Shown: positions 39,920 through 59,300 of the stretch, one piece after another
How the letters are laid out: every line of letters begins with the position of its first letter
Numbering within the stretch: the stretch's first letter is position 1
Source of the DNA: Chitinophagales bacterium
GTDB lineage: Bacteria > Bacteroidota > Bacteroidia > Chitinophagales > JADJOU01
Direction of reading: 5' to 3'
Assembly (NCBI GenBank): GCA_016787225.1
Contig: JAEUUY010000006.1
Span: forward strand, 1 to 64,000
DNA: 64,000 bases
Notes under the pieces: model-generated
Told to the model about the DNA's origin: nothing
Databases searched by the model: none
The model's input: the letters and a program-made list of their open reading frames with translations, nothing else
Made by a program: the position numbers and the translations under genes

Positions 39920-39969
39920 CACATAATTTTTCTTCCTTCGTTTATAATTTGACGAAGAAAAATTATGTG
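39920..39969. repeat. 16-bp perfect inverted repeat in the leuS upstream region
   Basis: CACATAATTTTTCTTC (39920-39935) is the exact reverse complement of 39954-39969. The inner CTTCGT/ACGAAG can pair as an alternative with a 4-nt bulge. The right arm ends 26 nt before the leuS ATG at 39995 and contains the rejected ATG at 39965. It could be an attenuator, an operator, or a terminator for one strand. Confidence 0.7.
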
Positions 39970-39994
39970 TACATTTGTCATCTTTTACCAAACT

Positions 39995-42900
39995 ATGCAG
40001 TATTCCCCCAGTGCGATAGACCAGGCGGCTAAGAAAATATGGTCAGATAAAGATATTTACAAAATAGAAAACGATATTTCTAAGCCAAAACATTATGTCT
40101 TAGAGATGTTTCCCTATCCCAGTGGCGCTGGCTTGCATGTAGGTCATCCACTAGGCTATGTAGCTAGTGATATCTATGCACGATTCAAGCGGATGAAAGG
40201 TTTCAATGTACTGCACCCCATGGGTTTTGATAGCTTCGGCTTGCCTGCAGAGCAGTATGCTATTGAGACAGGCAAAGACCCTAGAGACACCACCAAGGAA
40301 AATATAGCTACTTATAAGAATCAGCTCAATAAAATTGGTCTAAGTTTTGACTGGTCGAGAGAAGTCGTGACGAGCAGCCCAGAATATTACAAATGGACGC
40401 AGTGGCTATTTATCGAAATGTTTAATTCTATTTATTGTTATGAAAACCTATGCGCTTATTCAATCGATGTCTTAATAAGACATTTCGAAGAGCATGGGAA
40501 TTATAACAATACCGCCTTTACCAATAACCAAGTCAAAGCCTTTTCAGCCGAAGAATGGAAAAACTATTCTGAAAAAGAGAAAAGTGATATTCTGATGAAC
40601 TATCGCCTCATCTATACAAGTATGGGTGAAGTCAACTGGTGTGAGGCTTTAGGAACTGTACTCGCAAATGATGAAGTCATCAATGGGCGAAGTGAGCGCG
40701 GAAATCACCCAGTAGTCAAAAAGAAAATGCGACAATGGTCGCTGCGAATGACAGCTTATGCCGATAGATTATTGCAGGGACTAGAAGAAGTAGATTTTTC
40801 CAATTCATTAAAAGATCAACAACGAAATTGGATAGGGAAATCTACAGGAGCTCAAGTTACTTTTCCGTTAGTAACCAATAGGTCATTCATTGTATTCATT
40901 GAGGCTGCATTGAATGATAATTCAAATGACAAGACTTCGTTTTCCTTGGGTGCAATTGATGATTCATTTTCTCAAATTTTATCTGAAAAATCTGGGATTA
41001 AACTAAATCAAGAATACCAATTTGAAATTGACAACTACGCCGTTAGGCATATTTTCGAGCGTCATGGCAATACCTGTCTAGAAGAGAAACGTGGACAAAA
41101 GAGCGTAAATTCTTATGATTTCGAACTATTGATGGATGTCTTATTGAAACCAGACAATGTCATATACGGAGGTGTAAACTTGCGAGGACTTCCAACTATA
41201 ATTTTCACTAAGCAAATAAGAAAAGCAAATTATGTAGCTGTATTTGAGATTAGAAAGGGAAGAAAAAAAATAAACTTAAGTACCTTTAGAATAAATAAAG
41301 GGAAGACTGGACTACAATCTTCCCTCTTAATCGAGGGAGCTATGCCTTCTAGAAATCTAGAATCCTTCTCTGAAACGCCCAAGACGATACTCGATAGTGC
41401 AAAGATAGACAAAATATATCTAACCAATAGAAAAAACATACTAGTTTACACTACTCGTCCTGATACCATCTTCGGAGCTACCTTTATGGTGATGGCACCT
41501 GAACATACGATAGTTTCTAAGATAGTGACCGATGAATATAAAACGAAGGTCAATGAATATATCGCTTATTGTAAATCGAAATCGGATATAGACAGACAAG
41601 CCGAAAAAGAAGTAAGTGGACAGTTTACGGGGGCTTATGCTATTCATCCATTCACTGGGAAATTGCTTCCTATCTATATCGCCGAATACGTATTGATGGG
41701 ATACGGCACGGGTGCTATCATGGCAGTGCCAGCAGAGGATGAGCGAGACAGAAAATTTGCCGAGAAGTTTGGTATAGAGATTATCGAAATATTTGATAAA
41801 AAAGGAATAGAAAAATCGGAAATTGGAGACAAACAAGGTATTCTTAAGAATTCTGATTTTATAAATGGACTGAATTGGAAAGATGGCTTCGACAAGGTGA
41901 TAGTACGAATGGAAGATGATGGTATCGGAGAACGCAAGACGCAGTTTCGACTTCGCGATGCTAACTTCAGTCGTCAACGATACTGGGGCGAACCTATTCC
42001 TATTTTATGGAAAGATGAAATACCTTATCCATTAGATAAGTCTCAATTACCTTTATTAAACCCCGATGTAGATTCTTTTCTTCCCTCAAAAGATGGACAA
42101 GCGCCCAATGCTAGAAATGAAAAATGGGTGCATGAAATAGAAGGCTATACGCGTGAAGTAGACACTATGCCTGCTTTTGCAGGTTCTTCATGGTATTTCC
42201 TCCGTTATATGGATCCACAGAATGACAAGGAATTTGTATCGAAAAATATAGCTAAGTATTGGGGGCAAGTCGATTTGTATCAAGGAGGATCTGAACACGC
42301 CGTAGGTCATCTTTTGTATTCCCGCTACTTCAATCACTTCCTTTACGACCGAGGTTTTGTCTCACATAAAGAGCCTTTCAAAAGGTTGATTAATCAGGGG
42401 ATGATACAGGGTAGAACGCAGTTTGTTTATCGTTCTAATGAAAATGAAAACATATTTATCTCTAAAGGATTAATAAAAAAGGATACCGAAGTTACACCAA
42501 TTCGAACTGATGTAAATATGGTAGAAAACGATGCTTTAGATATCGAAGCTTTCAAAAAATGGAGGAGTGAATTTGCGAATGCCCAATTCGAATTAGAAGA
42601 TGGGAAATATATCTGTGGCTGGGAAATCGAAAAAATGTCCAAGTCCAAATACAATGTCGTTAATCCCGATGATATTATCGATAAATATGGTGCAGATTGT
42701 TTTCGAATGTATGAGATGTTTCTAGGTCCCATAGAGCAGTCCAAACCATGGAATACTGCGGGGATAGAGGGTGTATCCAAATTTTTAAAGCGTTTTTGGA
42801 ATTTGTATTTGGATGAAAATGGCAATTCTAAAATGACCTCTACTGGAGCAACCACAGAGGAGCTAAAAGTGCTACATCGTACTCTCGATAAACTCGCCAA

Positions 42901-43315
42901 GGATATCGAAAACTTTTCATTCAATACTTGTGTGAGTGCTTTTATGATAGCAGTGAATGAATTGACATCGGCGAAAACATCGAGCCAAGATATTTTACTG
43001 CCACTATTAAAGGCTATTTGTCCATTTGCGCCCCATACTGCCGAGACTATTTGGTCTCAGTTGGGTAAAACGGGCTCTATCATCGTAGAAGAATTTCCTG
43101 CGGTAGATGAAAAATATCTCGTAGATGACACCATAGAATATCCCGTATCCATCAATGGTAAAATGCGAGTCAAGATAAACCTAGCTGCCGATATCGATGA
43201 GGCTCAAGCTAGGGAAGCCGCCATGACAAATGAAACTGTATTGAAATGGCTAGAAGGTAGAGAAATTAAGAAATTTATTTTCGTAAAAGGCAGAATGATT
43301 AATGTAGTTGTATAA
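39995..43315 (+). CDS. leuS: Leucyl-tRNA synthetase with an inserted PBECR/MuF-like nuclease domain in the CP1 editing domain
   Basis: The start is the ATG at 39995 (MQYSPSAIDQAAKK, 1106 aa), as in LeuRS relatives. An earlier ATG at 39965 adds 10 residues that do not look like LeuRS. The class I HIGH region (FPYPSGAGLHVGHPLGY), KMSKS (EKMSKSKYNVVNPDD), editing-site block (YTTRPDTIFGAT) and RNWIGKSTGA are intact. The usual Bacteroidota length is about 920-940 aa. The excess is one block at residues ~297-479, placed in the hairpin between VTFPLV and ILVYTTRPD. It is bounded by VTNR on the left and LTNR on the right. Everything before and after aligns with normal LeuRS, so the enzyme probably still charges tRNA-Leu. 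A DUF502 gene follows in the same direction. Confidence 0.95.
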   Translation: MQYSPSAIDQAAKKIWSDKDIYKIENDISKPKHYVLEMFPYPSGAGLHVGHPLGYVASDIYARFKRMKGFNVLHPMGFDSFGLPAEQYAIETGKDPRDTTKENIATYKNQLNKIGLSFDWSREVVTSSPEYYKWTQWLFIEMFNSIYCYENLCAYSIDVLIRHFEEHGNYNNTAFTNNQVKAFSAEEWKNYSEKEKSDILMNYRLIYTSMGEVNWCEALGTVLANDEVINGRSERGNHPVVKKKMRQWSLRMTAYADRLLQGLEEVDFSNSLKDQQRNWIGKSTGAQVTFPLVTNRSFIVFIEAALNDNSNDKTSFSLGAIDDSFSQILSEKSGIKLNQEYQFEIDNYAVRHIFERHGNTCLEEKRGQKSVNSYDFELLMDVLLKPDNVIYGGVNLRGLPTIIFTKQIRKANYVAVFEIRKGRKKINLSTFRINKGKTGLQSSLLIEGAMPSRNLESFSETPKTILDSAKIDKIYLTNRKNILVYTTRPDTIFGATFMVMAPEHTIVSKIVTDEYKTKVNEYIAYCKSKSDIDRQAEKEVSGQFTGAYAIHPFTGKLLPIYIAEYVLMGYGTGAIMAVPAEDERDRKFAEKFGIEIIEIFDKKGIEKSEIGDKQGILKNSDFINGLNWKDGFDKVIVRMEDDGIGERKTQFRLRDANFSRQRYWGEPIPILWKDEIPYPLDKSQLPLLNPDVDSFLPSKDGQAPNARNEKWVHEIEGYTREVDTMPAFAGSSWYFLRYMDPQNDKEFVSKNIAKYWGQVDLYQGGSEHAVGHLLYSRYFNHFLYDRGFVSHKEPFKRLINQGMIQGRTQFVYRSNENENIFISKGLIKKDTEVTPIRTDVNMVENDALDIEAFKKWRSEFANAQFELEDGKYICGWEIEKMSKSKYNVVNPDDIIDKYGADCFRMYEMFLGPIEQSKPWNTAGIEGVSKFLKRFWNLYLDENGNSKMTSTGATTEELKVLHRTLDKLAKDIENFSFNTCVSAFMIAVNELTSAKTSSQDILLPLLKAICPFAPHTAETIWSQLGKTGSIIVEEFPAVDEKYLVDDTIEYPVSINGKMRVKINLAADIDEAQAREAAMTNETVLKWLEGREIKKFIFVKGRMINVVV
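40872..40881 (+). repeat. Left copy of the 10-bp direct repeat flanking the leuS insert
   Basis: TAACCAATAG, encoding part of VTNR. An identical copy lies 549 bp downstream at 41421-41430. Confidence 0.9.
41299..41338. repeat. Two overlapping, mutually exclusive hairpins inside the leuS insert
   Basis: AGGGAAGA (41299-41306) pairs with TCTTCCCT (41318-41325), and TCCCTC (41321-41326) pairs with GAGGGA (41333-41338). They share the middle arm. Confidence 0.6.
41421..41430 (+). repeat. Right copy of the 10-bp direct repeat flanking the leuS insert
   Basis: TAACCAATAG, encoding part of LTNR, identical to 40872-40881. The right-hand LeuRS sequence resumes with KNILVYTTRPD. Confidence 0.9.
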
Positions 43316-44027: not shown

Positions 44028-47000
44028 TCACCTCACTAGGGTTACATCGCCTTTTCGTACTACTTTTCTACCCCCGAGATATGTGACTTCCACATAATAG
44101 ATATAAACTGCCATTGGAGCTGGTTCTCCTTTATATATTCCATCCCATCCTGATAAATGAGCATCTTCTGTCTCGAACATTTTCTCTCCCCAGCGGTTAA
44201 ATATCATTAGCTCTGCTCGCACTACCTTATTTGCATAAATTCTGAATGTTCTATTCTCGACATTGCTAGCTGCAGGAGCGAATGAATTCGGGATATAAAG
44301 ATCATTACTATCTATGACTTTTATTCTTACGGTATCATAAACAAAACAGCGCTGATTGTACTTAACCTCTACAGCATAATTTTTGCTGACATAGGTGGTC
44401 GCTAAAGGTTCTTTGCAATCTATGCAACTAAGACCATCTGAGCTAGCCCAACGAATACTATTAACCAAGTCAGGACTTCCCTCTGTGACATCAAAGCCGA
44501 GTAATACGCTTTCTCCCAGTGCTATAGTCGTGTCTATTGGATAAGCCTTTATATTAAATACCGGATATCCTTTTATTTCAGTCTGAATAGAATCTAGACA
44601 ACCATTGAAGTCTTTTATGAGTATTTGATATTTAGCTGGTTTGAGTTCATCAAATTTATTTCGCATGGTAAAGGTCAAGCCACCATCTATACTAAATGAA
44701 TATGGTCTGACTCCACCTTCGGTATTTTTTATCTCCACCTCTCCATAAAGTTGCTCTCTGCAAGCTTGGTCTAGAGGTATAGGCTCTCCAGGAAAAAGTT
44801 TCTTTGGCGAGGTCACCGTATCATTTCTTAAAATGACGCAGCCTACCTTATCTGTCAAAGTTAAGCGATAAACACCAGAACCCAGTTGACTAGGACTGCT
44901 CGAGGTGTTCCCGTTTGACCAGGCATAGTTATAAGGCTTGACACCATTGGATGCCTCTATTCTAATGGCACCTTTAGATTCACCATGACATGCATTATGC
45001 GTAATAATTGATTTGACAAGTATTTGAGCAGGATTGATAAAAGTATGCGATAGCTCTTTTCTGCAACCTTTGGCATCTGTAGCCACGACTTTATGGGCCG
45101 CATCTCCTAGATTAATCGCTTTATTAGTAGTCTGATTCGAAGGCGTCCATAAATAATTAAAGCTGCCATTGCTGCCATTGGCAGTTACTTGTAGCATGCC
45201 ATCGTTTCTATTATAGCAGGTCAGAGGTTTGATAGAGTCAAATACGAGATGAATGGAGTCTGGCTGAGTAATAATAAATGAATCGCGATATACACAACCT
45301 TTATTATCTGTCACAGTAAAATCATATTTCCCAGCACTTAGTCCATTAAATGCGCTATCCAAGCTAGAGGTTGATATGGAATATAGATATGGTTTTTGCC
45401 CACCTGTTGCATACAAAACGACTCGTCCCGAGTTATCATTAAAGCAATTCAATCTAAATGTATCATAACTTGCTCGAACTAAATTAACTTCTTCCAAGAC
45501 CTTTGTAGTGGCAGTATCCTTACAATTATAAAAATCTGAAACTGTCAAGCTATAGTTTCCTGACGCAATATTCATGGCATTTTGTGTGATTGCGCCATGG
45601 CTCCATTGATACATAAATGGTGGAGTGCCATCGGTAATAGTTGTTACAATCTGTCCAACAGCTTTCAAACAATACGCATCCGTACTATCCAATTTTATCT
45701 TAGGAACGGTCGTTGTTGATACTATCAAAGAGTCCACGACTATACATTGTCTTCCATCTACTACGGTCAAATAATGTTTACCAGGAAGAATATGGTTGAC
45801 TCTAGATCCCGTATCACCAGTACTCCAAGAATATGTAATAGGTTCTACTCCACGCATAAGAAGTGCTTGCATTTTGCCATTTTTTAAGCCACAAGTAGAC
45901 TGTTCGCTTCGCGTAGAATCTGCATGTAGATATGGAGGTGTCCCAGGGTCTATATCTATATTTTTAATGTCTGTACAACCTAGAGAATCTGTAACCGTAA
46001 TCCTATAAATACCTACTGCCAAACTATCAAGATCTTTCGTTGTTTTACCATTGCTCCATTGGTAGCTAAATGGCATTGTACCATCCTGTATATTTATCTT
46101 GATAGCACCATTGGCTTTATTACAGACCGCCTGAATTTTAGTTTCAACAATTAGAGGTTTTTTGCGGTCTTCAAGTATGACGGTATCCGTATGAACACAA
46201 TTATTTATGTCTCTCACTGATAACCAATACTTACCAGCAGTTTGATTGGAAATAATTGCTGTCTTATCTCCTGTATTCCACGTGAGGTCGTATCCTGGTA
46301 CACCTCCCAATACCAAACCTTGAATTGATCCATTAGCTAATCCACATTTTGATTTCGTAGTAGTGAAGCTAATATTCATACCAGATATTCTCGCTACATA
46401 AATAGCGCTGCTATCTTTGCAACCATAGTTATCTGTAACCACTACGCTATAGGTACCGGAATCCACACCGAATAAATTTGCAGGCGTCATATTATTGCTC
46501 CATTTAAAACTCATTGGCGGAGTACCTTGTGTGACATTCGTAGTTATCGTTCCATTATTGATATTGCATGAAGCATCTTGTTTTATGAGATTTAGCTTCG
46601 GTATAGTGCCCATAACTAAATTTGCGGATTTAGTATGTGTACAAAGACTATCCGAAACAGTGACGGTATATGAGCCTGGCGCCAATGGATGAATACTATC
46701 TATAGTGGATGTGTTGCTCCAGTTATATGTAACATTGCCTAAAGCATTTACGGCAATAGCTTTAGCGCGTCCATTATTTACCATACAACGTGGATGAAAA
46801 ATATTAAACCGAATCGAATCCATTCCAATATTTCCAAGTTGGATAGTGGCTGCCACATTACAACCATATCCGTCATTTGCCGTTACACTATAACTTCCTG
46901 GCACTAAATTAGAAATAGAATCGGCAGTATTTGTATTGCTCCATATATAACTCATCCGACTAGCATGATTACTAACTGAAACTTTCAATCTTCCATTTGG

Positions 47001-50000
47001 CAACCGGCACTTGGCATCGTATTTTATAAGATTCACACTCGGGAAGCCTTGCTGATTTATCACAATGGAGTCTGACCAGACACAACCCTTGCTATCCGTT
47101 ACGGTTAATTTATAGGTTCCTGGACTGAGATTTCTTATAGAATCGGAATTTGTAATAGTATGTGCCCATGTAAATAAGCGGCTACCCGTGCCTCCTGTCA
47201 TATTGACTTTGATATATCCGTTATTTATATTACAACTTGCATTCTTTTTTATAAAAGAGCCTAGTAAAGGTTTAGAAGTATCCACAGTAACTGTATCGCT
47301 TTTTACGCAACCTCTGGCATCCACTACGCGACAGATATATCTTCCTCCATTGATATTGGCGATGTTATTAGTTCCTAAAACATTATTCCAGAAGTAAGTA
47401 ATAGGCGGCTTGTTTGAACTTACATTTGCTAAGATGGAAGCATTATTCAAACCACAAGTAGCGTTTGTCACTATTAATGCGAGAGCTGGACCCGCTGAAT
47501 CACCAATAGTACGAATCTCTGAAGCCTGACAGCCTAAGCTATCTGTTATAGAGACCGTATAATTTCCCGCACCAAGATTCGCAGCCATTGGAGTATTAAG
47601 CGAGGCATTATGACTCCATGCATAAGTATATGGCAGTTTTCCGCCCGATGCACTGGATATGATAGAGCCCATCTTATAGGTACAATTATCATTAACTATA
47701 CTGGTAGATATAGTCGTTTTTGGAATTCGTGAAAGATAAATCGTATCTCTACGTTCGCAATTGTTAGAATCAATAATATGGCAAATCTGTCTTCCTGAAT
47801 CACTTCCCACGAGTGCCAATCCAGAGAAACTTCCATTCCATACTACATTATAAGGGGGTTTGCCAGAAGTAATAATTGAAGTAGCTGAACCATTATTGAG
47901 CGCACAATGCGCAGGGCTTCCTTTCAAACTTGCTATTAAAGCAGGTTGAGCTAAAATCAAAATCGAAGCTGTATCTTGACAGCCTAAACTATCTGTAACA
48001 GTCATAGAATAATTTCCTCCATTAAGGTTTACTCTATCTTTGGTAGTTATAGAGCTTCCTTGCCATTGATATACAATAGGCTTGACTCCAAAGCCCACCG
48101 TGGTAGTAATTTTACCTTTTCCGTTTCCGCAGAGTGAATTTTCTCCTTGCAGACTGACCTCTGGTGGTAAGAAAAACTTAACCTCTGCACTATCTTTTAC
48201 CTCACAATTTCTATTATCTGTGACAGTTATTGCATAAGTTCCGCTAGAAAGGGATACTATGGTGTCGAGGTTCGTGAAATCATACCACTGAATAGTGTAA
48301 GGTGGCTTACCCCCTGTAATATTTACCTTTACCTTTCCATTGTTATCTGTGCATATAGCATTCGTTGCAGTTAAGTTGATTTTTTGTGCTGCGCTATCTT
48401 TTAAATAAATTGTATCTATTGTTTCACAATTATATCCATCTTTCACCCTCACTACATAGTAGCCTGAATCCAAGTTAAACATTTCTATAGCCCCTTGATA
48501 TGGCACATTCGAACTAAATGGGTTCGGTAATTTTCGAAATGCATATTCTAATCCACCTACAGTAGAAATGGCCACACCCGTTATAGCTCCGTCTGACTTA
48601 CCACAATTTGGTCTAGTCTTTAAATAAATAGTTTGAGGAGATATGGTATATGCTAATGTATCTCTGAGAGTAAAGGTGCAACCGTTGCTATCCGATACCG
48701 TCACGGCATAAAGACCAGGAGCTAACGAATCTATCCTTCTACTAGTCTTACCGCCTGGACTCCAAATAAAACTATGGAGTTTATCTCCAAATACTTCCAG
48801 CGATCCGAGATTTCGTCCACAAGGTGGAGGCGTCTTTCCTAAACTTGGAAACTGTGTTGGATTTTTGGGTAAGGTTATATTAGCTGTTACATTACATTTA
48901 TGTGAATCGATTACGAAGACACTAAAGCTTCGCTCCCCCGTCAAGCCAGTTTTCTTATAAACAGAATCTATTACTCCATTCCATCGTATGGTTATTGGCT
49001 GAATGACACTATCTATTTTAATATGAACCTCCCCGTTGCCTCCAATACATGTTTCGATTACTACTGAATCTCTTATAATTGGATAGTGTGTATATTCTAT
49101 CTGCACCGCGGTATCATATTTACAACCAAGCGAATCTGTTACTTGTAGTTTATATTCCTTTGCCTCTAACGAATCTATAATAGCAAAAGTGTCCTTTGGA
49201 AATCTATTCCATTGATATTTATAAGGAGCAAATCCATAATTAGGTGTTGTAATAACCTTTCCCGTATGACTATCACATCGTGTCTTTGTGATGTCGAAAG
49301 TCATTCTCATATTCGTACTATCTCTCACTTTAATAGAATCCCAATAAGTACATCCTAAACTATCTCGAATACTTAAGCCATAAGTGCCAAATTTTAATGA
49401 ATCTGCCACTAGTCCTTTATCTCCATTTGACCAACTGATAGTATATGGTGGGGTACCATTATAGAAGGTTAATGCAATTTTACCTGTTGAGTCCTTGCAC
49501 TTCGACCGAAAAATGTCATAGGTTACAAGTATGTCACCATTTGAATTAAGATTAAAAGTGTCCTTTACTTCACATCCATTGGCATCTTTTATAGCTACAG
49601 TATATATTCCCATGGGCAAGAAGCGGACAAATCCTGTTGTTGTTGTATCACTATGTGACCATAAAAAACTAAATGGACCAGAACCGGATAAATTATACAA
49701 ATGAATTAGCCCATTATGCAACCCACAGCGAGCAGGTTTGAAACTATCCGAATAGGTAGGCGATGGTCTCCTGCGAATAGAATCACTCAAAGTATCTTTA
49801 CAACCAAGGGAATCAGTTATAATTAAGGTATAAAAGCCTTTAGGTTTATTTACAATATCTCTCGTGGTATCACCAGAACTCCAAGCATATTTTATAGGTA
49901 ATTTACCGTTGACCACATTTGTTAGAATACGGCCCACTGTATCTGTACACATAGCATTTTTGGTGTCAAATATAATGTTTGGGTCCGACTTAGGTGCTAG

Positions 50001-53000
50001 ATTGAAACTACGCCATTTCCTGCATTTATTCGTATCGATTAGCATAACGGAGTAGATTCCAGGCGTTCGGTTTACTAAGGATGTAGCAGTAGATCCATTG
50101 CTCCATATAATGTTGATTGGGGTTGGTCCAGAAATATTTTGAAGAAAAATAGAACCTAATGAATTATGACAAGCGGGTTGTATTACACTATCTGTAAAGT
50201 CTACTGCTGGTATAGCTTCTAGGGTATCTCTTTTTATGAATTGACATCCAAAGGAATCCGTTACAGTTAGTGAATAAATTCCTGGGGCTAATTTACTTAT
50301 TGAACTAATAGTATCGCCATTACTCCAGCTATAAGTAATTTTTGGCTTGCCCCCAATGACCGTAGCTGCTATTCTTCCATTGTTTAAATTACATGTAGGA
50401 CGCACAGGAGCGGTGGTCACTGTTGGTAGTGAATTATTCGTTAATGTTATTCCGGTGACTACAGAGCAGTTATTTGAGTCTGTAACAGTGACTACATAAA
50501 GTCCAGATATCAAGTTCGTTCTTGAAGCGGTAGAGGCACCTCCTGACCATGAATAAGTAAATGGAGCTTTCCCGGATACTACTTGCAGATTTATGGAACC
50601 ATTTGGCAAACCACAATTTGTGTTCGTTTTGACAATATTGAGAGATACAGCCGAAGTTCCATTTACATATACAGAATCTATCCTAATGCAACCCGCACCA
50701 TCTTGAATAGTTATTCGATACCAACCCATAATGAGACCACTGATAGAATGGTTTGCACTTGTAATAGCAGTTGTTGAAACACCGTTGCTCCAGGTATAAA
50801 TATACGGACTAGTGCCACCACTAACTACATTGAAAGTAGCTGAGCCATTGGACTGTCCACATGTAGAGATAGTTGAAGATTTTGTCACCTGTATTCCATT
50901 GGATGAATTCAGTACAATGGTGTCTCTTTGGATACAACCTTTCGCATCGGTTAAAGTATGCACATAGGTGCCAGATCCTTTGCTAGAGATGATACTAACA
51001 GTATCACCTGTACTCCATAAATATCGATATGGCGCAACACCTCCGCTTGGTATAATTGTAATGACTCCGTTATTTAAACCACAGTTCGGTTGACTGACAG
51101 TTCGACTGGTGGAAGTGGGACTACTCGCACCAATAGGAATCATGTATTGTATAGAACAACCCAAACTATCTTGTATATTGAGTGTATATAATCCGCTGGG
51201 TCTATTATCTATAAATGTATCTGTTGAAATAACTGTAGTGCCAAGTCTCCACGTTTGAGTTATTGGTTTTACACCAGATTTTGATATAATTCTTGCCCTG
51301 CCATTATTTAATCCACAGGAGGTACTATCAATAACAAAATTAGCAGACGGAGCAGAGGTGCCAACAGAGACAACTATGGTTGTATCGATTCTACAGCCCG
51401 CTACATTTCGAATAGCGAGATTATATGTTCCTGCAGCCAGTCCATTAAACACATTACTGGCTACAAAATTGACTCCACCATTAATGGAATACTGATAAGG
51501 TGGATTCGAAATAGACCCAGTTTTTACCTTGATGCGAATAGACCCATTATTGATACCACACGATGTTTTAACTGCAATGAGCGAATCTATTTCATCACGT
51601 ATGATCGAAACCTTAACTTGACTAATAGCGCTATCACGACAACCACCTGAAGTGGATACCACTACCTTATATGTCTGCGTGCTTGGTGGTTTAGCTATCG
51701 GATTGGAAATAGTAGTAGAAGACAACCATGAGGCTGGAGTCCAAGAATAGGTATAATTACTAGATAAAGGATTAGGTGTTACCTGCAGTTGAGCCGAATC
51801 TCCCTTACAATAAGCCAGATTTGGATTGAGTGACAGGATCGGAAATGGTTGAACACGCACTAAAATTGGTGTATCAGAGGCAGGACAACCCACCGCTGAT
51901 ATGCGAAGTTTTATAGTATCTGTAGTAAATACTGTGAGATTGGGTGCTGTATATATAGGATTTGAGCAGCTGGTGCAGGTCAACCGAGCAGCGGGGGACC
52001 AAGTAAAATTATAGCTATTATCTGTAGTGGTATAGAATAATGGCAATGTTCTTCCTGCGCACACTGAAGTATCACGTTTACCTCCGAAAATGTTTATACC
52101 ACCTGCAAAATCTCGAATAATGATTAAAACAGTATCTGAATAGTTAATACTAGGCACTGAAAATACAATTCGCAATGATTCAGGCGTTTCCTTGAGTGAG
52201 TCTAAAATAGCCTGAATGTTATACAAAAAGGTAGAACTTCCTGTAGGTATAGTAAATGAAGCTGCAGCAGTATAATCATTCGCTGAGCTAGATCCTGAAA
52301 AACTGGCATTGACCGTGATAGGAGACGTAGTAGCTAATCTGGAGAAACGGATAACTCCAGGGTTACATCCTTCAATTAGTTTAATAGTATCTGGTGTAGG
52401 TACTCCATTCGTGCCTCTCTTCTCAGTAATTTCTAGCTTAATTTTTGAAGTAAAACTGTATTGTTTTAAAAATATACCACTATCGAAAAAGCCATCTGCT
52501 ATATCAGCTATAGCTATTTTCATGGTATGCGTTTGAAAAGGTGAAACAGGAATTACTGCCCTTAACGTTTTTGTCATTCCATCATAGACAATATGATTAT
52601 TAACTAAATTTCCTGTGTAATGCTGTATGAATGGAGCTCCTGAACCCAAAGATTGGCAATAGTTCACATAATTTGTCCACCCCGTTTGCTTCATAGTATC
52701 ATTAATACTATTGGTAGAAACATTTACATTGGTTCCAGGCACTTTAGCATAATTTGTAAAACTAGTGCTAGCGGGAGGCGAGACAAAAATTCCGAAAGCA
52801 TCTACGTATTGTGAACAGCCATATTCAGGATACTCCTCCGATGCAAAAGCATAATCTATAAATGCTGTATCGCCCTGTGGTATGAAGTGGAACTGCAAAA
52901 AACAGAGATCTCTCTGTATAGCAGCGCTTCCAGCTAATGAAGTTATCTGAGCATCCGTAGTTGTATTGCCCCAATTCTTACTAGCCTGCGCTAATCGATT

Positions 53001-53291
53001 TGCATTAATGCCTGTATCGCCGCTCACCGTCAGTACTCGACCAGTGCACAAGACAATCCCTGTATCTATGGCTAAACTTAAATTTGGCGTAGGATTTACA
53101 TTTATAAAAGTTCCATTAGCTTGTGTGTTGCAGTTCAAACTCATGCCTGTACCTGGCAGTATAACTCCCCTTCCTATTAACCTACTAGCTAACTGGGTTG
53201 CTGTATGATTGGGAGTGACACTCATAGTCTGACTTTTCACATGTAGTGAAAAAAAAACAAGAACCCAAAGGAATATTTTTTGGAAATTCAT
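44028..53291 (-). CDS. Giant SprB-repeat adhesin with T9SS type B C-terminal domain (copy A)
   Basis: A 3087-aa surface protein. After the signal peptide (IFLWVLVFFSLHVKSQ) comes a choice-of-anchor-L domain (residues ~30-275; NVNPTPNLSLAIDTGIVLCT; YAFASEEYPEYGCSQYVDAF), then a Calx-beta-like strand region and an Ig/PKD-like segment (SYNFTWSPAARLTCTSC). Next are 31 SprB-type repeats of roughly 75 residues, each opening with C-x4-(N/G)G and closing with GxYxxxxxDxxGC. The C-terminus is a gliding-motility-type (type B) domain (IPNSFAPAAS; IFNRWGEKMFETED; GWDGIYKGEPAPMAVYIYYVE; RKGDVTLVR). It is exported by T9SS and is probably a filamentous adhesin for surface contact or gliding. The neighbour at 53400-62657 is its paralogue. 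A TATATTTG -7 box and AGGAGA lie upstream. Confidence 0.93.
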   Translation of the reverse strand: MNFQKIFLWVLVFFSLHVKSQTMSVTPNHTATQLASRLIGRGVILPGTGMSLNCNTQANGTFINVNPTPNLSLAIDTGIVLCTGRVLTVSGDTGINANRLAQASKNWGNTTTDAQITSLAGSAAIQRDLCFLQFHFIPQGDTAFIDYAFASEEYPEYGCSQYVDAFGIFVSPPASTSFTNYAKVPGTNVNVSTNSINDTMKQTGWTNYVNYCQSLGSGAPFIQHYTGNLVNNHIVYDGMTKTLRAVIPVSPFQTHTMKIAIADIADGFFDSGIFLKQYSFTSKIKLEITEKRGTNGVPTPDTIKLIEGCNPGVIRFSRLATTSPITVNASFSGSSSANDYTAAASFTIPTGSSTFLYNIQAILDSLKETPESLRIVFSVPSINYSDTVLIIIRDFAGGINIFGGKRDTSVCAGRTLPLFYTTTDNSYNFTWSPAARLTCTSCSNPIYTAPNLTVFTTDTIKLRISAVGCPASDTPILVRVQPFPILSLNPNLAYCKGDSAQLQVTPNPLSSNYTYSWTPASWLSSTTISNPIAKPPSTQTYKVVVSTSGGCRDSAISQVKVSIIRDEIDSLIAVKTSCGINNGSIRIKVKTGSISNPPYQYSINGGVNFVASNVFNGLAAGTYNLAIRNVAGCRIDTTIVVSVGTSAPSANFVIDSTSCGLNNGRARIISKSGVKPITQTWRLGTTVISTDTFIDNRPSGLYTLNIQDSLGCSIQYMIPIGASSPTSTSRTVSQPNCGLNNGVITIIPSGGVAPYRYLWSTGDTVSIISSKGSGTYVHTLTDAKGCIQRDTIVLNSSNGIQVTKSSTISTCGQSNGSATFNVVSGGTSPYIYTWSNGVSTTAITSANHSISGLIMGWYRITIQDGAGCIRIDSVYVNGTSAVSLNIVKTNTNCGLPNGSINLQVVSGKAPFTYSWSGGASTASRTNLISGLYVVTVTDSNNCSVVTGITLTNNSLPTVTTAPVRPTCNLNNGRIAATVIGGKPKITYSWSNGDTISSISKLAPGIYSLTVTDSFGCQFIKRDTLEAIPAVDFTDSVIQPACHNSLGSIFLQNISGPTPINIIWSNGSTATSLVNRTPGIYSVMLIDTNKCRKWRSFNLAPKSDPNIIFDTKNAMCTDTVGRILTNVVNGKLPIKYAWSSGDTTRDIVNKPKGFYTLIITDSLGCKDTLSDSIRRRPSPTYSDSFKPARCGLHNGLIHLYNLSGSGPFSFLWSHSDTTTTGFVRFLPMGIYTVAIKDANGCEVKDTFNLNSNGDILVTYDIFRSKCKDSTGKIALTFYNGTPPYTISWSNGDKGLVADSLKFGTYGLSIRDSLGCTYWDSIKVRDSTNMRMTFDITKTRCDSHTGKVITTPNYGFAPYKYQWNRFPKDTFAIIDSLEAKEYKLQVTDSLGCKYDTAVQIEYTHYPIIRDSVVIETCIGGNGEVHIKIDSVIQPITIRWNGVIDSVYKKTGLTGERSFSVFVIDSHKCNVTANITLPKNPTQFPSLGKTPPPCGRNLGSLEVFGDKLHSFIWSPGGKTSRRIDSLAPGLYAVTVSDSNGCTFTLRDTLAYTISPQTIYLKTRPNCGKSDGAITGVAISTVGGLEYAFRKLPNPFSSNVPYQGAIEMFNLDSGYYVVRVKDGYNCETIDTIYLKDSAAQKINLTATNAICTDNNGKVKVNITGGKPPYTIQWYDFTNLDTIVSLSSGTYAITVTDNRNCEVKDSAEVKFFLPPEVSLQGENSLCGNGKGKITTTVGFGVKPIVYQWQGSSITTKDRVNLNGGNYSMTVTDSLGCQDTASILILAQPALIASLKGSPAHCALNNGSATSIITSGKPPYNVVWNGSFSGLALVGSDSGRQICHIIDSNNCERRDTIYLSRIPKTTISTSIVNDNCTYKMGSIISSASGGKLPYTYAWSHNASLNTPMAANLGAGNYTVSITDSLGCQASEIRTIGDSAGPALALIVTNATCGLNNASILANVSSNKPPITYFWNNVLGTNNIANINGGRYICRVVDARGCVKSDTVTVDTSKPLLGSFIKKNASCNINNGYIKVNMTGGTGSRLFTWAHTITNSDSIRNLSPGTYKLTVTDSKGCVWSDSIVINQQGFPSVNLIKYDAKCRLPNGRLKVSVSNHASRMSYIWSNTNTADSISNLVPGSYSVTANDGYGCNVAATIQLGNIGMDSIRFNIFHPRCMVNNGRAKAIAVNALGNVTYNWSNTSTIDSIHPLAPGSYTVTVSDSLCTHTKSANLVMGTIPKLNLIKQDASCNINNGTITTNVTQGTPPMSFKWSNNMTPANLFGVDSGTYSVVVTDNYGCKDSSAIYVARISGMNISFTTTKSKCGLANGSIQGLVLGGVPGYDLTWNTGDKTAIISNQTAGKYWLSVRDINNCVHTDTVILEDRKKPLIVETKIQAVCNKANGAIKINIQDGTMPFSYQWSNGKTTKDLDSLAVGIYRITVTDSLGCTDIKNIDIDPGTPPYLHADSTRSEQSTCGLKNGKMQALLMRGVEPITYSWSTGDTGSRVNHILPGKHYLTVVDGRQCIVVDSLIVSTTTVPKIKLDSTDAYCLKAVGQIVTTITDGTPPFMYQWSHGAITQNAMNIASGNYSLTVSDFYNCKDTATTKVLEEVNLVRASYDTFRLNCFNDNSGRVVLYATGGQKPYLYSISTSSLDSAFNGLSAGKYDFTVTDNKGCVYRDSFIITQPDSIHLVFDSIKPLTCYNRNDGMLQVTANGSNGSFNYLWTPSNQTTNKAINLGDAAHKVVATDAKGCRKELSHTFINPAQILVKSIITHNACHGESKGAIRIEASNGVKPYNYAWSNGNTSSSPSQLGSGVYRLTLTDKVGCVILRNDTVTSPKKLFPGEPIPLDQACREQLYGEVEIKNTEGGVRPYSFSIDGGLTFTMRNKFDELKPAKYQILIKDFNGCLDSIQTEIKGYPVFNIKAYPIDTTIALGESVLLGFDVTEGSPDLVNSIRWASSDGLSCIDCKEPLATTYVSKNYAVEVKYNQRCFVYDTVRIKVIDSNDLYIPNSFAPAASNVENRTFRIYANKVVRAELMIFNRWGEKMFETEDAHLSGWDGIYKGEPAPMAVYIYYVEVTYLGGRKVVRKGDVTLVR

Positions 53292-53399: not shown

Positions 53400-56300
53400 T
53401 TACCTCACCAATATAAAACTTCCTTTTTTAATTACCTTTCTACTATTGAGATAAGTAACTTCTGCTATATAGCTATACTCGCCTGTTGGTGCTAATTCTC
53501 CTTTAAAATATCCGTCCCAACCTTTTGTATTTCCTTGTTCCGTTTCATACATTTTTTCGCTCCATCGATTAAATATGGTTAAGCGTGCGGAAACTACTTT
53601 ATTCGAATATAGTTTAAATGTAGCATTCTCAGGATTAGCGCTTAGCGGAGAAAATGCAGTAGGAATATATAATTCATTATCATCTAATACTTTTATATAA
53701 ACAGTATCGCGTAAAGTGCATTTACTGAGATATTTTATGGTCAGTACATAATGATTGTCCACATAAGTAGTGGCTATTGGTTGTTCACAATCTGAACAAC
53801 TCAATCCATTTCCATCACTCCACATTATCTCATTTATCCATGAGTTATTTCCCTCTAAAACATTAAATCCTAGAGAGACTGATTCTCCCAAGTTTATGGT
53901 GCTAGATGATGGTGTAGCTTCGATACGCAGAATAGGAGCGGGTGCAATAGCCGTATCCTTATATGTTTCACAGTTTTCCTTATCTCGAATAAGTATATAA
54001 TAATTACCTGCATTGAGTCTCGTCCACTTATTTTTATATGAGAAAAACTTGCCACTATCCATACTATATTGATACGGAGCAACGCCTCCTTCTGCATTGA
54101 CGGTTATCTCGCCTTCGATTATTTCTTTACATATGAGGTCTTTTGTGATGATTGACCCTCTATTGCGCTCTCTAGCTGGATCTATCAAAGAATCAGTATG
54201 ACCAGCGCTACAACCATTCGAGTCAATGAGATTTAACGTATAGACCCCTCGCTTAAGATTCGTAAGATCTTTAGTATTAGCCTTATTGGACCAGTTATAT
54301 TGATATGGTTTGGTTCCATTCACTACATTGACGGAAAGAGAGCCTTTTGCTGTGCCATAGCAAGGATTTTGTATTTTAGAACTTGTTGTAATAAGTATCG
54401 GGGCAGGCTGTGTCAGAGTTACTTTTAAGGTATCTTTACACCCTATTAAATCTTCGACCGCTACTGTCTGAGTTCCTGCATATAAGTTAATGGCTCTATC
54501 GCCATAAGCTCCTGATGGGAACCAGCGATAGGTGTAAGGAAATGTACCTCCTGTTGTTTTAACCAAGATTTCTCCAGTTGGCTGATTATGGCATATAAGA
54601 TTGATGGAATCAAGCACCCTGGTAATCATCTTATTTGGCTGGGTAAGGGTGAATGAATCTTTATATTCACAACCTTTATTGTCCGTGATAGTAAAATAAT
54701 GTTTGCCAGCGCTGAGACCAATAGCTACAGAATCTTGTCTAGTAGTATACACCTTATAACTATAAGGAAACTGGCCACCTGAAGGGAAAAATTTGACACG
54801 ACCTGAAAAATCTTGAAAGCAAATAAGGTTGAAGGTATCATAGGTAGCTGTTACTAAATTAGGCTCTTCGGTCACAGTAATTTTTGCAGAATCCCTGCAA
54901 TTCAAGCTATCTGTAACGGTAAGTCTATAGATTCCTGGAAACAAACCAGCAATATTTGGACTAGTTGCGCCCGTATTCCATAGGTATTGATAGGATCCAG
55001 TTCCTTCCGTCACAGTAGATGTGATACTTCCATTTGCCTTAAGACAAAAAGATTGAATAGAATCCAATTTGATTTTTGGAAGCTTTGTTGTAGGTACAAC
55101 AAAATTTCGTATGATTTCACATTGTCTATCATCTGTTACGGTAAGTGTATATGTGCCAGGTCCAATATTCACTATATGATTACCAACGAATCCAGTGCTC
55201 CATGTATATACAGGGTTTATAGCTCTTACCGACATTAGGGTATATATGCCACCATTTGACAATCCACATGTAGAGCGATCGACTCTTATTGAATCAAATC
55301 CTGGCGAAGCACCAGATATTAAATTTTCCATAAGAGTATCCTTGCAGCCTATACTATCTGTTACGACAAGTGTATAAGTATTATCCGCTACATTATTTAA
55401 GAAGGTGGTCGTATCACCGGTATTCCATAAGTATCTTAATGGTTTGGTGCCAAATATTGTAGTTGTCATTATAGATCCATTCGGTTTGCCACAAACAGGC
55501 AACACAACAGTCTGTGGATATAGTTCTGGTTTCTTCCAATCATCAATCGTTATATTCGATGTAATGGTACAATTTCCATTATCGCTTAGTGTAAGGGTAT
55601 AAGCGCCAGCCAAGATATTCGAAAGGTTGGCTGTGCTTGCACCGTTGCTCCAGGCGTAGAATTTTGTGGAAGCTCCACCTCCTACATTTGTGGCAATACT
55701 TCCATTGGCTTCGCCACATTTTGATTTCTCGCCTGTGAGACTAACTGTGAGCATAGGTATTCGAGAGACATATATAATGGTAGAATCCTTACAACTATTT
55801 ACATCAGTTACTACTACTTTATATGTACCTGAATCTATATTCACTAAACTAGAGGAAGCGGGAGTTCCGTTCCAAGTATAACTAAAGGGCGATGTACCTG
55901 TTCCTAAATTGATATTGGCGTTGAGTTGTCCATTGTTGATGTTACAGCTGGCATCCTGTTTAGTCACATTGAGGACAGGCGACGTGGCCATGACTAAAGT
56001 TTGTGACTTGCTAAATGAACATAGATTGTCGGTCACTGTCACAGTATATGTGTTAGCACCAAGATTTATAATACTATCTATGGTAGCTGTGGTACTCCAG
56101 TTATAATTCACAGTGCCTATCGTATTGTTCGGCACAGCTTTTATTTTACCGTTATTAAGATTACATTTTGGATGTTGGAAAATTAAATTGATAGAATCTA
56201 CTCCAATACTATTTAGGAAAGTAGTCGAAGAAGCACTACAACCTGTAGCATCGGTCACGGTCACACTATAGTTGTTCGGAACTATACCACTAATGGTAGG

Positions 56301-59300
56301 GGTATTGCCGCCATTGCTCCAATTATAGGTTATAGTTCCGCTCGCATTAGTTACCACTGCTTGCAGGCTTCCATTGCCAGCTCTACAGGTAGATGGAGTT
56401 TTATTAAAATTGATAGTTGGCAAACCTTGTTGTATCAGCGTCACAGAGTCTATCCAAATGCAACCTCGCGTATCGGTTACTGTGTATTTATATTTTCCAG
56501 GACTTAGGTTGGCTATAGAATCTGTATTAGGTGCTGCGGGACTCCAAAAATAAGATTTCGCACCAGTGCCACCTGTTGCTCTTATTTTGATATAACCATT
56601 ATTGAGATTACAACTTGGATTTTTACTGGTCTTGGTAGCCGTCAATGGGAATACCGTATCGAGAGTAGCAGAATCCTGCTTGATACATCCTCTTGAATCA
56701 ATCACTCTATATACAAATTTGCCCCCATTGATATTAGACAAGGTATTTGTACCAGCGACATTATTCCAGAAATGACTTAAAGGAGTTCGGGAGCTGATAA
56801 CATTGGCAAATATAGAACCATTATTGAGTCCGCAACTCGCAGTATTAACGATGAGCGAAACAATAGGCCCAGCAGTATCTCCTACATTGACAAGGGATGT
56901 GACCAAACAACCCAAACTGTCCGTAATAGATAGGGTATATGTTCCCGCTCCTACATTTATTGCATTGGCATTCGTACCTAATCCACCACTCCATGAGTAG
57001 GTATAAGGAAGTCTCCCATCAATAACATTTGTAGAAATGCTTCCTATTTTATAGGTGCAATTGTCATTCACTACAATATGACTTGCACTATGCTTTTTCA
57101 CACGTGACAGATGCACGGTGTCTCTTATTTCACAGTTATTAGAATCCGAAATATAAAAGACGTGCTTACCTGTATCCAAGCCTGAAGCAGTCATAGAAGA
57201 AATAATAGTATTCCAGTGGAATATATAAGGAGGCTTACCTGTAACAACAGATGCAGTGAGAATACCGTTATTCAAATCACAGTTTGCAGGTTTTTTACTT
57301 ATAGAAATCGCCAAAGGTGGCTGCGCTGCAATGTTGACGGAGTCTTTATCTGTACAACCTGTACTATCGGTAATTGTCAGGATATATTTGTTAGCAGCCA
57401 AGCCATTTAAGTCTTTAGTGGTGGGGCCATGGCTCCAAGAAAAACTAAATGGTGATTGCCCAAAACTAATATTTGTGACGATTCTTCCATTACTAGGTCC
57501 ACAAAATGAATTCGTAGGGATTAGATTGATATCTGGACTTTGAATAAATAAAACCTTTGCGGTATCAATCGTTACACAGGCTCTATTATCCGAAACAGTC
57601 AATAAATAATTGCCACTAAACAAGGAGCTTAATGAATCTAATGTTGTGAAATTGTACCAGGTATAACTATAAGGAGGACTTCCCCCTGTTACAACAGCTT
57701 TGGCTTTTCCATTGCCATTATTACAGTGAGAATTTTTAATTTGAAATTGAATTTTAGGAGCTGTACTATCGATAATAGCAATAGTATCAAAGAGGATACA
57801 ACCCTTGGTATCACTGATTCGCACCACATAGACTCCGGAATCAACATTATTAATAAACCCTGTATCAGTTGCTTGTTCATTCGGAGCAAAAGCCCCAGAC
57901 ATTTTCTTCCAACTATAGAAATAATCTCCATAGATACTATTTGCTACCGTTATTATTTGTCCATCGAATCGACCACAATTAGATCTAGTCCAGCTTATAG
58001 ATTTGGTAGGTGCAGTGGTATATGCTAAGGTGTCCCGAAGTACATAGACGCAACCAGCTGTATCAGTCATAGTAACCGAGTATATGCCAGGTGCTAGGCT
58101 ATCTATCGATGCTGTAGTTTTACTATTGCTCCAAATATAGGATTGGGCTACTATAGGCGGAGAGAAACTTAAAGAAATAGTACCCAAATTATTCCCACAC
58201 GGTGGGTCACTACTTACAATTATTGGTGGAACAATAGGGTTGGTATCTATAAAAGGAAAGGCGAATGCCTGACACTTATGGGAGTCGATTACTTGAATTG
58301 AAAAAGTTAATGGTCCTTTGAGACCTATTTTCTTATAGGTAGAATCGATTATACCATTCCATCGAATGGTAATAGGATTTATAACACTATCAATTTTTAT
58401 ATGTATTTCTCCATTACTGCCTCCGCATTTCTCTAAGACAATAGAATCTGTAATAGTAGGGTAATGGGTATATAGCATAGTGGTAGTGGTGTCATACTTA
58501 CATCCATTTGAGTCTGTAGTTAACACCCGATAGGTGCCGATAGTGACACTATCTAGCAATGCAAAAGTATCTCTAGGCAAACGCTGCCACACATGTTTGT
58601 ATGGAGCTTTACCACCAAAAGGCATAGCTAAAATCGTCCCGCTAGCGGTATCACAGCGCGTTTTCACTATGACAAAAGTATCTCGCAGCATAGTGCTATC
58701 GCGCATAGTAATTGAATCTCGTACTATACATCCGAGGCTATCTGTTATAAGCAACTCATACCTGCCAAATTTAAGGCTATCTGCCATCACGCCTGTATCT
58801 CCATTCGACCATTGAATAGTATATGGAGGGGTTCCATTGGTAATATTTATTGTAATTTTTCCTGTGGAATCATTGCATTTGGAACGTTGAATAGATGTTT
58901 GATAGGTAATAGCTCCTTTTGTAGTCAAATCCCAAGTATCCCGTACTATACATCCATTGCTATCTGTTATGGCAACGCTAATAGTATCACTTGGTAGACC
59001 AACAACAAAATTTCCACTAGCATTTGGATCATGACTCCATGAAAAAGAATAAGGTGAAGACCCAACTAAATTGTAAATATGTATAAGTCCATTATTGAAG
59101 CCGCAGCGGGCTTTTCGAAAGCTATCTTGATAAGTAGGTGGTGGCCTTCGTATGATAGAGTCTGTTTTAGTAGCACTACAATTATTAAAATCTGTGACTG
59201 TCAAAGTATAGGATCCTACTGCCTTAGCCGTGATGTTAGGAGTGGTCTCTCCTGAGCTCCAAGTATAACTAAATGCAGGAGTACCTCCAGAAATACTTGA

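Follow-up and report, generated by a model that had tools for sequence, protein, structure and literature searches.

A leucyl-tRNA synthetase (LeuRS) encoded in the window (the whole 64,000-nucleotide stretch of DNA analysed) carries, in frame at the tip of its CP1 hairpin, a PBECR3 insert whose 3' end is conserved as DNA in inserts of a second synthetase. The reading that we prefer, with a probability of about one in two, is that an RNase-like PBECR3 gene and a structured RNA convergent with it, together resembling a toxin and its RNA antitoxin, were inserted whole into the hairpin tip. An essential synthetase that contains a potentially toxic RNase raises the question of how the nuclease is kept harmless. 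The convergent RNA-like element offers an answer that can be tested, and may establish a nuclease/RNA pair that is new and common to the order's solo PBECR3 genes.

A PBECR3 domain within leucyl-tRNA synthetase

The LeuRS gene is the one LeuRS match at E ≤ 1e-50 in its genome. Its open reading frame (39965..43315, + strand; likely start 39995, MQYSP) runs uninterrupted for 1116 aa and includes an in-frame insert of 549 bp (40882..41430, + strand; codons 40883-41431) that adds 183 codons and is not found in LeuRS of the relatives G002-G005. The insert, as described in the original prediction and confirmed here, lies between perfect copies of a 10-bp direct repeat, TAACCAATAG, at the hairpin tip (left copy 40872..40881, right copy 41421..41430, both + strand). 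The two copies stand in equal reading phase, and neither side allows the repeat to be extended. Removal of the insert with one repeat keeps the frame and rebuilds the hairpin sequence VTFPLVTNR-KNILVYTTRPD, in which the spacer between NWIGKS and TTRPD is 19 aa, the commonest CP1 hairpin length in another family (39 of 78 hairpins measured). The GC content of the insert is 34.6%, compared with 39.0% for the remaining LeuRS gene, and the translation of the interrupted gene retains the HIGH-type, KMSKS-type and TTRPDT editing motifs. On the Thermus thermophilus LeuRS (1h3n) the insertion site falls, as read from the alignment, in the turn at residues ∼237-240, ahead of TTRPD at 247-251.

Shuffling the two 60-nt flanks 3000 times produced a 10-bp repeat somewhere in them 6 times, and 5 of 1260 window pairs spaced 549 bp apart also contained one. 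The repeat matches the empty site in the manner of a target-site duplication, at a chance of ∼0.002-0.004; taken alone it is only modestly unlikely, and the exactness with which it fits the empty site strengthens the case. The genome shows no excess of TAACCAATAG (8+7 matches versus 10+12 for the reversed control), which rejects it as a dispersed target. As the source genome is a draft (2.96 Mb, 34 contigs), an assembly artefact has to be considered. This explanation is hardly credible, however, given that the 1116-aa frame is unbroken, the empty site is cleanly restored, the locus lies inside a 207-kb contig and two comparable cases in valyl-tRNA synthetase (ValRS) come from other genomes.

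The insert matches the Pfam family PBECR3 (PF18812; domain at 40979..41308, + strand) with E 1.3e-18 and 67.4 bits, exceeding the curated cut-off of 30, which bears out the PBECR-type domain originally proposed. No other Pfam family matched the insert at E ≤ 1, and it is the sole PBECR3 match in the source genome. The parts of Iyer et al. 2017 (PMC5512222) cited here treat BECR as an RNase fold, and give its active nucleases a His within the first (N-terminal) helix and a Ser or Thr within the last strand. When aligned with the family the insert retains residues of this catalytic type, His56/His61 and Thr134. In an AlphaFold model built from 8 sequences, block means were 79-94 for insert residues 1-141 and <50 for the tail (residues 142-183), while the CP1 region folded together with the insert was poor beyond the insert itself (mean pLDDT 50). 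A Foldseek search with the insert model returned no match at E ≤ 0.001. The top rows in VIA-align were BrnT (Z 6.7), RelE-type toxins (Z 5.0-5.4) and colicin D (Z 5.1), with the first unrelated row at Z 3.9; this range of 5.0-6.7 points to a BECR/RelE/colicin D-like fold, every Z being below 8. By its family match the insert is a member of PBECR3 and a putative RNase. PBECR3 and phage-BECR domains are known from phage and mobile-element polyvalent proteins and in solo form, and the cited parts of PMC5512222 make no mention of a location within LeuRS or ValRS, or of a convergent RNA-like element, as found here. The domain in the window is hosted by LeuRS and not by a phage head or polyvalent protein, or a solo gene.

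Empty sites and other occupants of the LeuRS hairpin

LeuRS is uninterrupted in three genomes of the same genus (G002, G003 and G004; open frames of 926-936 aa) and the site is also empty in G005, from the same family. The LeuRS of G001, again from the same genus, is 93% identical to the window enzyme before the site, 92% after it and 74% in the C-terminal part, and contains at that site an unrelated in-frame DUF559 domain (PF04480; E 7.8e-38), the only DUF559 match of this genome. The empty-site homologues anticipated in the original prediction therefore exist, and the domain is not shared by the close relatives, which are empty or, in G001, occupied by DUF559.

DUF559, which we take to be of the PD-(D/E)XK type, matches at least 221 of 395 genomes in a survey of the phylum. 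Among 30 loci taken from this survey, three are in LeuRS (L045, L048, L069), five in genes that motif recognition suggests are MetH (L052, L054, L060, L062, L070) and three in presumed HsdR genes, identified in the same way (L050, L053, L058); the remainder are in further genes or solo. LeuRS was matched in 147 of the 149 genomes of family f25, from which 80 of the 147 were sampled (all 60 open frames ≥1000 and 20 shorter, with 67 left out) and 79 read, L111 having been dropped; 13 of the 79 hairpins contain a DUF559-type domain. Within the window's order LeuRS matches were obtained in at least 239 of 248 genomes. Thirty order genomes, chosen for weak, split or missing LeuRS matches, were re-searched; 28 matched and 15 have DUF559 at the LeuRS hairpin. 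With G001 and G382 there are at least 30 cases of DUF559 at this position (loci L016, L069, 13 within L088-L147, and L169-L183).

In a DUF559 domain tree built on few columns the 30 LeuRS copies cluster (3 changes versus a shuffled mean of 19.2; no shuffle of 500 as low), and so do the five MetH copies (100/94) and the three HsdR copies (100/99). The sister species G083 and G544 have LeuRS enzymes that are 96% identical over 632 residues and DUF559 inserts that are 47% identical. Synonymous difference across 17 pairs placed the insert closer than the host in 4 (the three pairings of G195, G657 and G750, plus G493/G538), farther in 3 (each involving G074, G083 or G544) and was indistinguishable in 10. 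The ExDG pattern is present in 27 of the 30 LeuRS inserts and is ELDG in G492; it is degraded in G733 (L093) and G624 (L099), where the inserts are DUF559-like still, with the active-site motif lost. DUF559 at fixed sites in housekeeping and restriction genes would thus appear to resemble homing elements that do without splicing. This turnover, together with the at least 30 cases, indicates that nuclease-family domains repeatedly enter the LeuRS hairpin and turn over fast there, PBECR3 being a new occupant. The supposition that the site is special to the window's element is not upheld, since DUF559 and short repeat-like peptides are found there far more often.

Such peptides (for example VIASEAKQS and SEMLKQVQHDKSERHSELDSES) occur at the hairpin in several f25 species (L088-L167). 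The empty LeuRS hairpins of G003 (L013) and G002 (L038) consist of a near-perfect DNA palindrome, which in G003 is AATTTTCAAATC AAA GATTTGAAAATT. Palindromes of the form CCYTCTCC-N2-6-GGAGARGG number 37 in G074 and 48 in G083, which are DUF559 carriers, and 0 in the window's genome. In the LeuRS of G001 (L016) another stretch, considerably longer than 100 residues, is also replaced directly ahead of the KMSKS loop, and the LeuRS matches of several relatives likewise split near KMSKS.

The window insert resembles the LeuRS DUF559 domains in being an in-frame, nuclease-family domain with fast turnover in the identical hairpin, but it belongs to a different family and lacks the palindromes that flank most DUF559 inserts. 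A DUF559 cassette is rejected by the absence of a PF04480 match from the source genome, in which the palindrome pattern has 0 matches. Like inteins, the insert is in frame in an essential protein, is sporadic and has empty alleles. An intein is rejected by the absence of splicing motifs; the insert ends in ...YLTNR and continues into KNIL, an Arg end followed by Lys, with no HN and no Cys, Ser or Thr at +1. A group I or II intron is likewise rejected, as Rfam gave no intron match at E ≤ 1 at any of the three loci (LeuRS and the two ValRS), its one match at E ≤ 1 being taken as chance, and a tRNA-like element is rejected as ARAGORN found no tRNA. There are no terminal inverted repeats of an insertion sequence or MITE (longest inverted end match 4 bp, chance level). 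Intragenic REP/RPE palindromic elements are also small structured DNAs tolerated within coding genes, although, in the parts of PMC3733652 cited here, these are short and many-copy, whereas the LeuRS insert is single-copy and contains a complete protein domain. The insert is filed under PBECR3, and is not an intein, an intron, a MITE or a DUF559 cassette.

PBECR3 in the homologous valyl-tRNA synthetase hairpin

The same domain has entered another protein, as had been suggested it might. Two genomes of one genus from another family, G911 and G809, encode PBECR3 in frame within ValRS (frames open over 1096 and 1092 aa). The G911 insert is located between positions aligned to 206 and 209 of the T. 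thermophilus ValRS, in the hairpin ahead of TTRPE that is homologous to the LeuRS site. The ValRS inserts share 37% protein identity with the window insert, tail included, and are its closest relatives; in a poorly resolved PBECR3 protein tree the LeuRS and ValRS inserts do not group. PF18812 had no match in G355, which is from the genus of G911 and G809. Between these two genomes omega for the insert is 0.10 (bootstrap 0.04-0.20) at a dS of 2.1, which is near saturation, and pN is 0.150 for the PBECR3 core versus 0.154 for the ValRS host. The tail alone has a low dS (pS 0.21) and an omega of 0.76 (0.34-1.73). These data show that PBECR3 is under purifying selection in the ValRS pair. Direct repeats at the ends of the ValRS inserts are at best 6 and 5 bp, which is chance level in a comparison made without an empty sister ValRS.

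It could be argued that the LeuRS insert is a tolerated passenger, a PBECR3 fragment caught at a permissive hairpin tip during break repair and translated as a harmless, functionless segment. The hairpin does hold DUF559 domains, repeat-like peptides and other additional loops in many species, and LeuRS with PBECR3 was found once only in the genomes searched. Set against this, PBECR3 is present at the homologous ValRS site in another family, where catalytic-type residues are kept and purifying selection operates, and the third codon positions of the 3' element described below are conserved. A passenger is therefore unlikely. The CP1 hairpin appears to receive nuclease-family domains of unrelated kinds (in LeuRS both PBECR3 and DUF559, in ValRS PBECR3), which opens splicing-free domain insertion into essential enzymes to systematic study.

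Distribution of PBECR3 and of insert relatives

PF18812 was matched in 4 of 395 phylum genomes and 12 of 396 order genomes, the source genome being counted in both, and PBECR3 lies inside LeuRS in one genome among those searched. With the window insert as query, relatives were found in 7 of 50,697 phage records and 1 of 72,556 plasmids, while the ValRS insert retrieved 8 phage records and 1 plasmid. Viral contigs yielded 15 loci when queried with an alignment, no relative when queried with a single insert protein, and none with the trio of inserts (window, G911 and G809) or the trio tail. A scan of genome contigs for insert relatives, the sensitivity of which was low, returned two loci. A search of the open-licence full-text literature by title and abstract opening found no description of a PBECR3 or DUF559 insertion in a synthetase.

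The phage relatives of the window insert are 25-37% identical to it across part of the domain. With the ValRS inserts as closest relatives, a direct phage origin is not supported. The original interpretation stands in its assignment to PBECR, the in-frame entry, the empty sites and the second host gene; the target-site duplication as a general signature, which the ends of the ValRS inserts do not share, and a site specific to the element are likewise not supported.

A conserved 3' element and a putative antisense RNA

The three inserts (window LeuRS, and G911 and G809 ValRS) have in common a 3' element of ∼119 nt (41297..41415 in the window, + strand), which is an addition to the original prediction. 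In the LeuRS frame it is read as the low-confidence, probably disordered tail (KGKTGLQSS..AMPS..ESFS), and it contains two local palindromes of 7-8 bp. The element is 73% identical between the window and G911 over 130 columns (blastn E ∼1e-16). Third codon positions of the tail are equal at 13/15 and 11/15 between the window and G911, compared with 3-9/15 in the preceding blocks, and, for G911 against G809, at 14, 13 and 15 of 15, compared with 4-8/15 in earlier blocks. These data show that the element is conserved at the DNA level, third codon positions included.

A DNA-conserved end common to inserts of different genes and families, along with the 10-bp direct repeat and the clean empty site, is what might be expected of a mobile element that spreads through a nuclease and a structured end of its own, intein- or homing-like without splicing, the 3' element being the recognition end. 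The DUF559 domains at the same site partly fit this description, with lineages that follow the host site and sister species in which the host is conserved (96%) and the insert is not (47%). Such an element is very unlikely here, however, as the insert is single copy in its genome and without an end-to-end inverted repeat, the ValRS inserts have no long direct repeat, and the cited parts of PMC5512222 regard the BECR fold as that of RNases.

The opposite strand of the 3' element resembles a small-RNA gene, and is a candidate on the basis of three features. A putative structured RNA, antisense to LeuRS/PBECR3, would occupy 41297..41399 (− strand); it is preceded by TATCTTTG (41400..41407, − strand), which matches TAnnTTTG, presumably the Bacteroidota −7 box consensus, and ends in a terminator-like hairpin with a 13-bp stem that runs into T-rich DNA (41297..41327, − strand). 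RNAalifold predicted 28 pairs for the trio element, of which 6 have two-sided changes that keep pairing, a number reached in 0 of 500 shuffles, for a structure that itself came from these three rows. Folded singly, the trio elements are only mildly stable (z −1.4 to −1.7). TAnnTTTG is present at one antisense position in 10 of 13 PBECR3 loci (L245 of G602 and L229 of G888 were left out), comprising 3/3 synthetase inserts and 7/9 order solos, where its chance per slot of that size is 0.015. The box is absent from G538a and G369 (the latter from another group), and G568 has the variant TACATTTA. The −33 boxes upstream of the putative RNA are irregular. A strong hairpin was found in 11/11 loci, a set that had no control and omits G538a and G369, both of which lack the −7 box. 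In 10 of these the hairpin runs into T-rich antisense DNA; in G538b the T-rich stretch falls inside the stem. A closing-stem test with free windows was not significant (206 of 2000 permutations as good), while 2 of 5000 permutations were as good when windows were set afterwards around the expected arms. RNAalifold returned 0 pairs on a plain MAFFT alignment of the 11 loci, and a common fold beyond the trio therefore rests on the per-sequence hairpins.

A covariance model of the trio detected no further strong copy in 714,669 bases. Another 200 kb of the source genome and 200 kb of G911 contained only weak matches, L246 and L265; L246 (12804-12919, − strand; contig C6 ∼76804-76919 of the source genome) has an E of 0.11 and is probably chance. 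With filters off, the model gave 13 matches at E ≤ 1 in 16 loci, of which the trio itself accounts for 6 (either strand), solo genes for 4 and other places for 3. The solo matches, all weak and on the strand of the gene, are at the 3' ends of 4/9 order solo PBECR3 genes (L238, E 0.012; L236, 0.013; L243, 0.63; L244, 0.93), and a similar hairpin-plus-core layout, judged by eye, lies 3' of 8/9 of them. Similar elements thus seem to follow the order's solo PBECR3 genes. Viral contigs contained neither of two exact patterns taken from the 3' element, and blastn with the element found nothing in plasmids or phages. Rfam gave no match to the element above the gathering score in nine loci (eight order solos and L072). 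An L20_leader match that overlaps the L239 element in antisense (E 0.83; 25.3 bits versus 58.7) and two below-threshold ctRNA matches near, but not on, the L242 element were taken as chance.

The data also bear on the possibility that the domain is an RNase tethered to the synthetase for a role in the host. Both LeuRS and ValRS edit through CP1, which would explain why these enzymes are the hosts; a nuclease next to the editing site would meet tRNA or phage RNA, and the 3' element would regulate the synthetase mRNA. The presence of PBECR3 at the homologous hairpin of two different CP1 synthetases is consistent with such a role, as are the structural match to colicin D, which is a tRNase, and the strong conservation of the PBECR3 core in the ValRS pair. 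By contrast, solo PBECR3 genes seem to have similar 3' elements without any synthetase, the distribution is patchy, and DUF559, which is found at the same hairpin and also in MetH, HsdR and other proteins, suggests permissive sites rather than a tRNA role. Tethering to serve the host is thus quite unlikely.

A possible RNase and RNA-antitoxin module

The preferred reading, a toxin/RNA-antitoxin-like module, would combine these observations as follows. A two-part module, consisting of a PBECR3 gene and a small RNA encoded on the opposite strand at its 3' end, would have entered the LeuRS hairpin tip whole and in frame, leaving a 10-bp duplication behind and preserving the motifs of the enzyme. 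The RNase domain would now be produced within LeuRS, while the RNA gene would persist within the coding sequence, on the antisense strand; in two other species a related module would have reached the homologous ValRS hairpin. By binding the RNase or its message the RNA would act as an antitoxin that holds the domain inactive, such that RNA cleavage would be unleashed once the RNA were lost, and residence in an essential gene would shield the module from deletion. Speculatively, the module may have been captured at a break in a hairpin perhaps cut by DUF559 nucleases, with fill-in generating the 10-bp duplication. A module of this kind would account for the manufacture, within an essential protein, of a BECR nuclease with intact residues, and for the third-position conservation in the tail. 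It is tentatively proposed, as a stronger claim, that PBECR3 and its convergent RNA represent an undescribed system that protects itself by fusion into essential class I synthetases, with the antitoxin RNA antisense within the coding sequence.

Toxin-antitoxin systems of types I and III use RNA antitoxins, and an upstream tandem-repeat array is known among them. The LeuRS insert is similar in that an RNase-type protein lies beside a possible small structured RNA gene, but the putative RNA is a single one, placed convergently at the 3' end, and is not an upstream tandem-repeat array. Elsewhere in the window, two neighbouring giant proteins of 3087 and 3085 aa (44028-53291 and 53400-62657, both − strand) have a CHU_C domain, a type IX secretion signal, together with SprB repeats.
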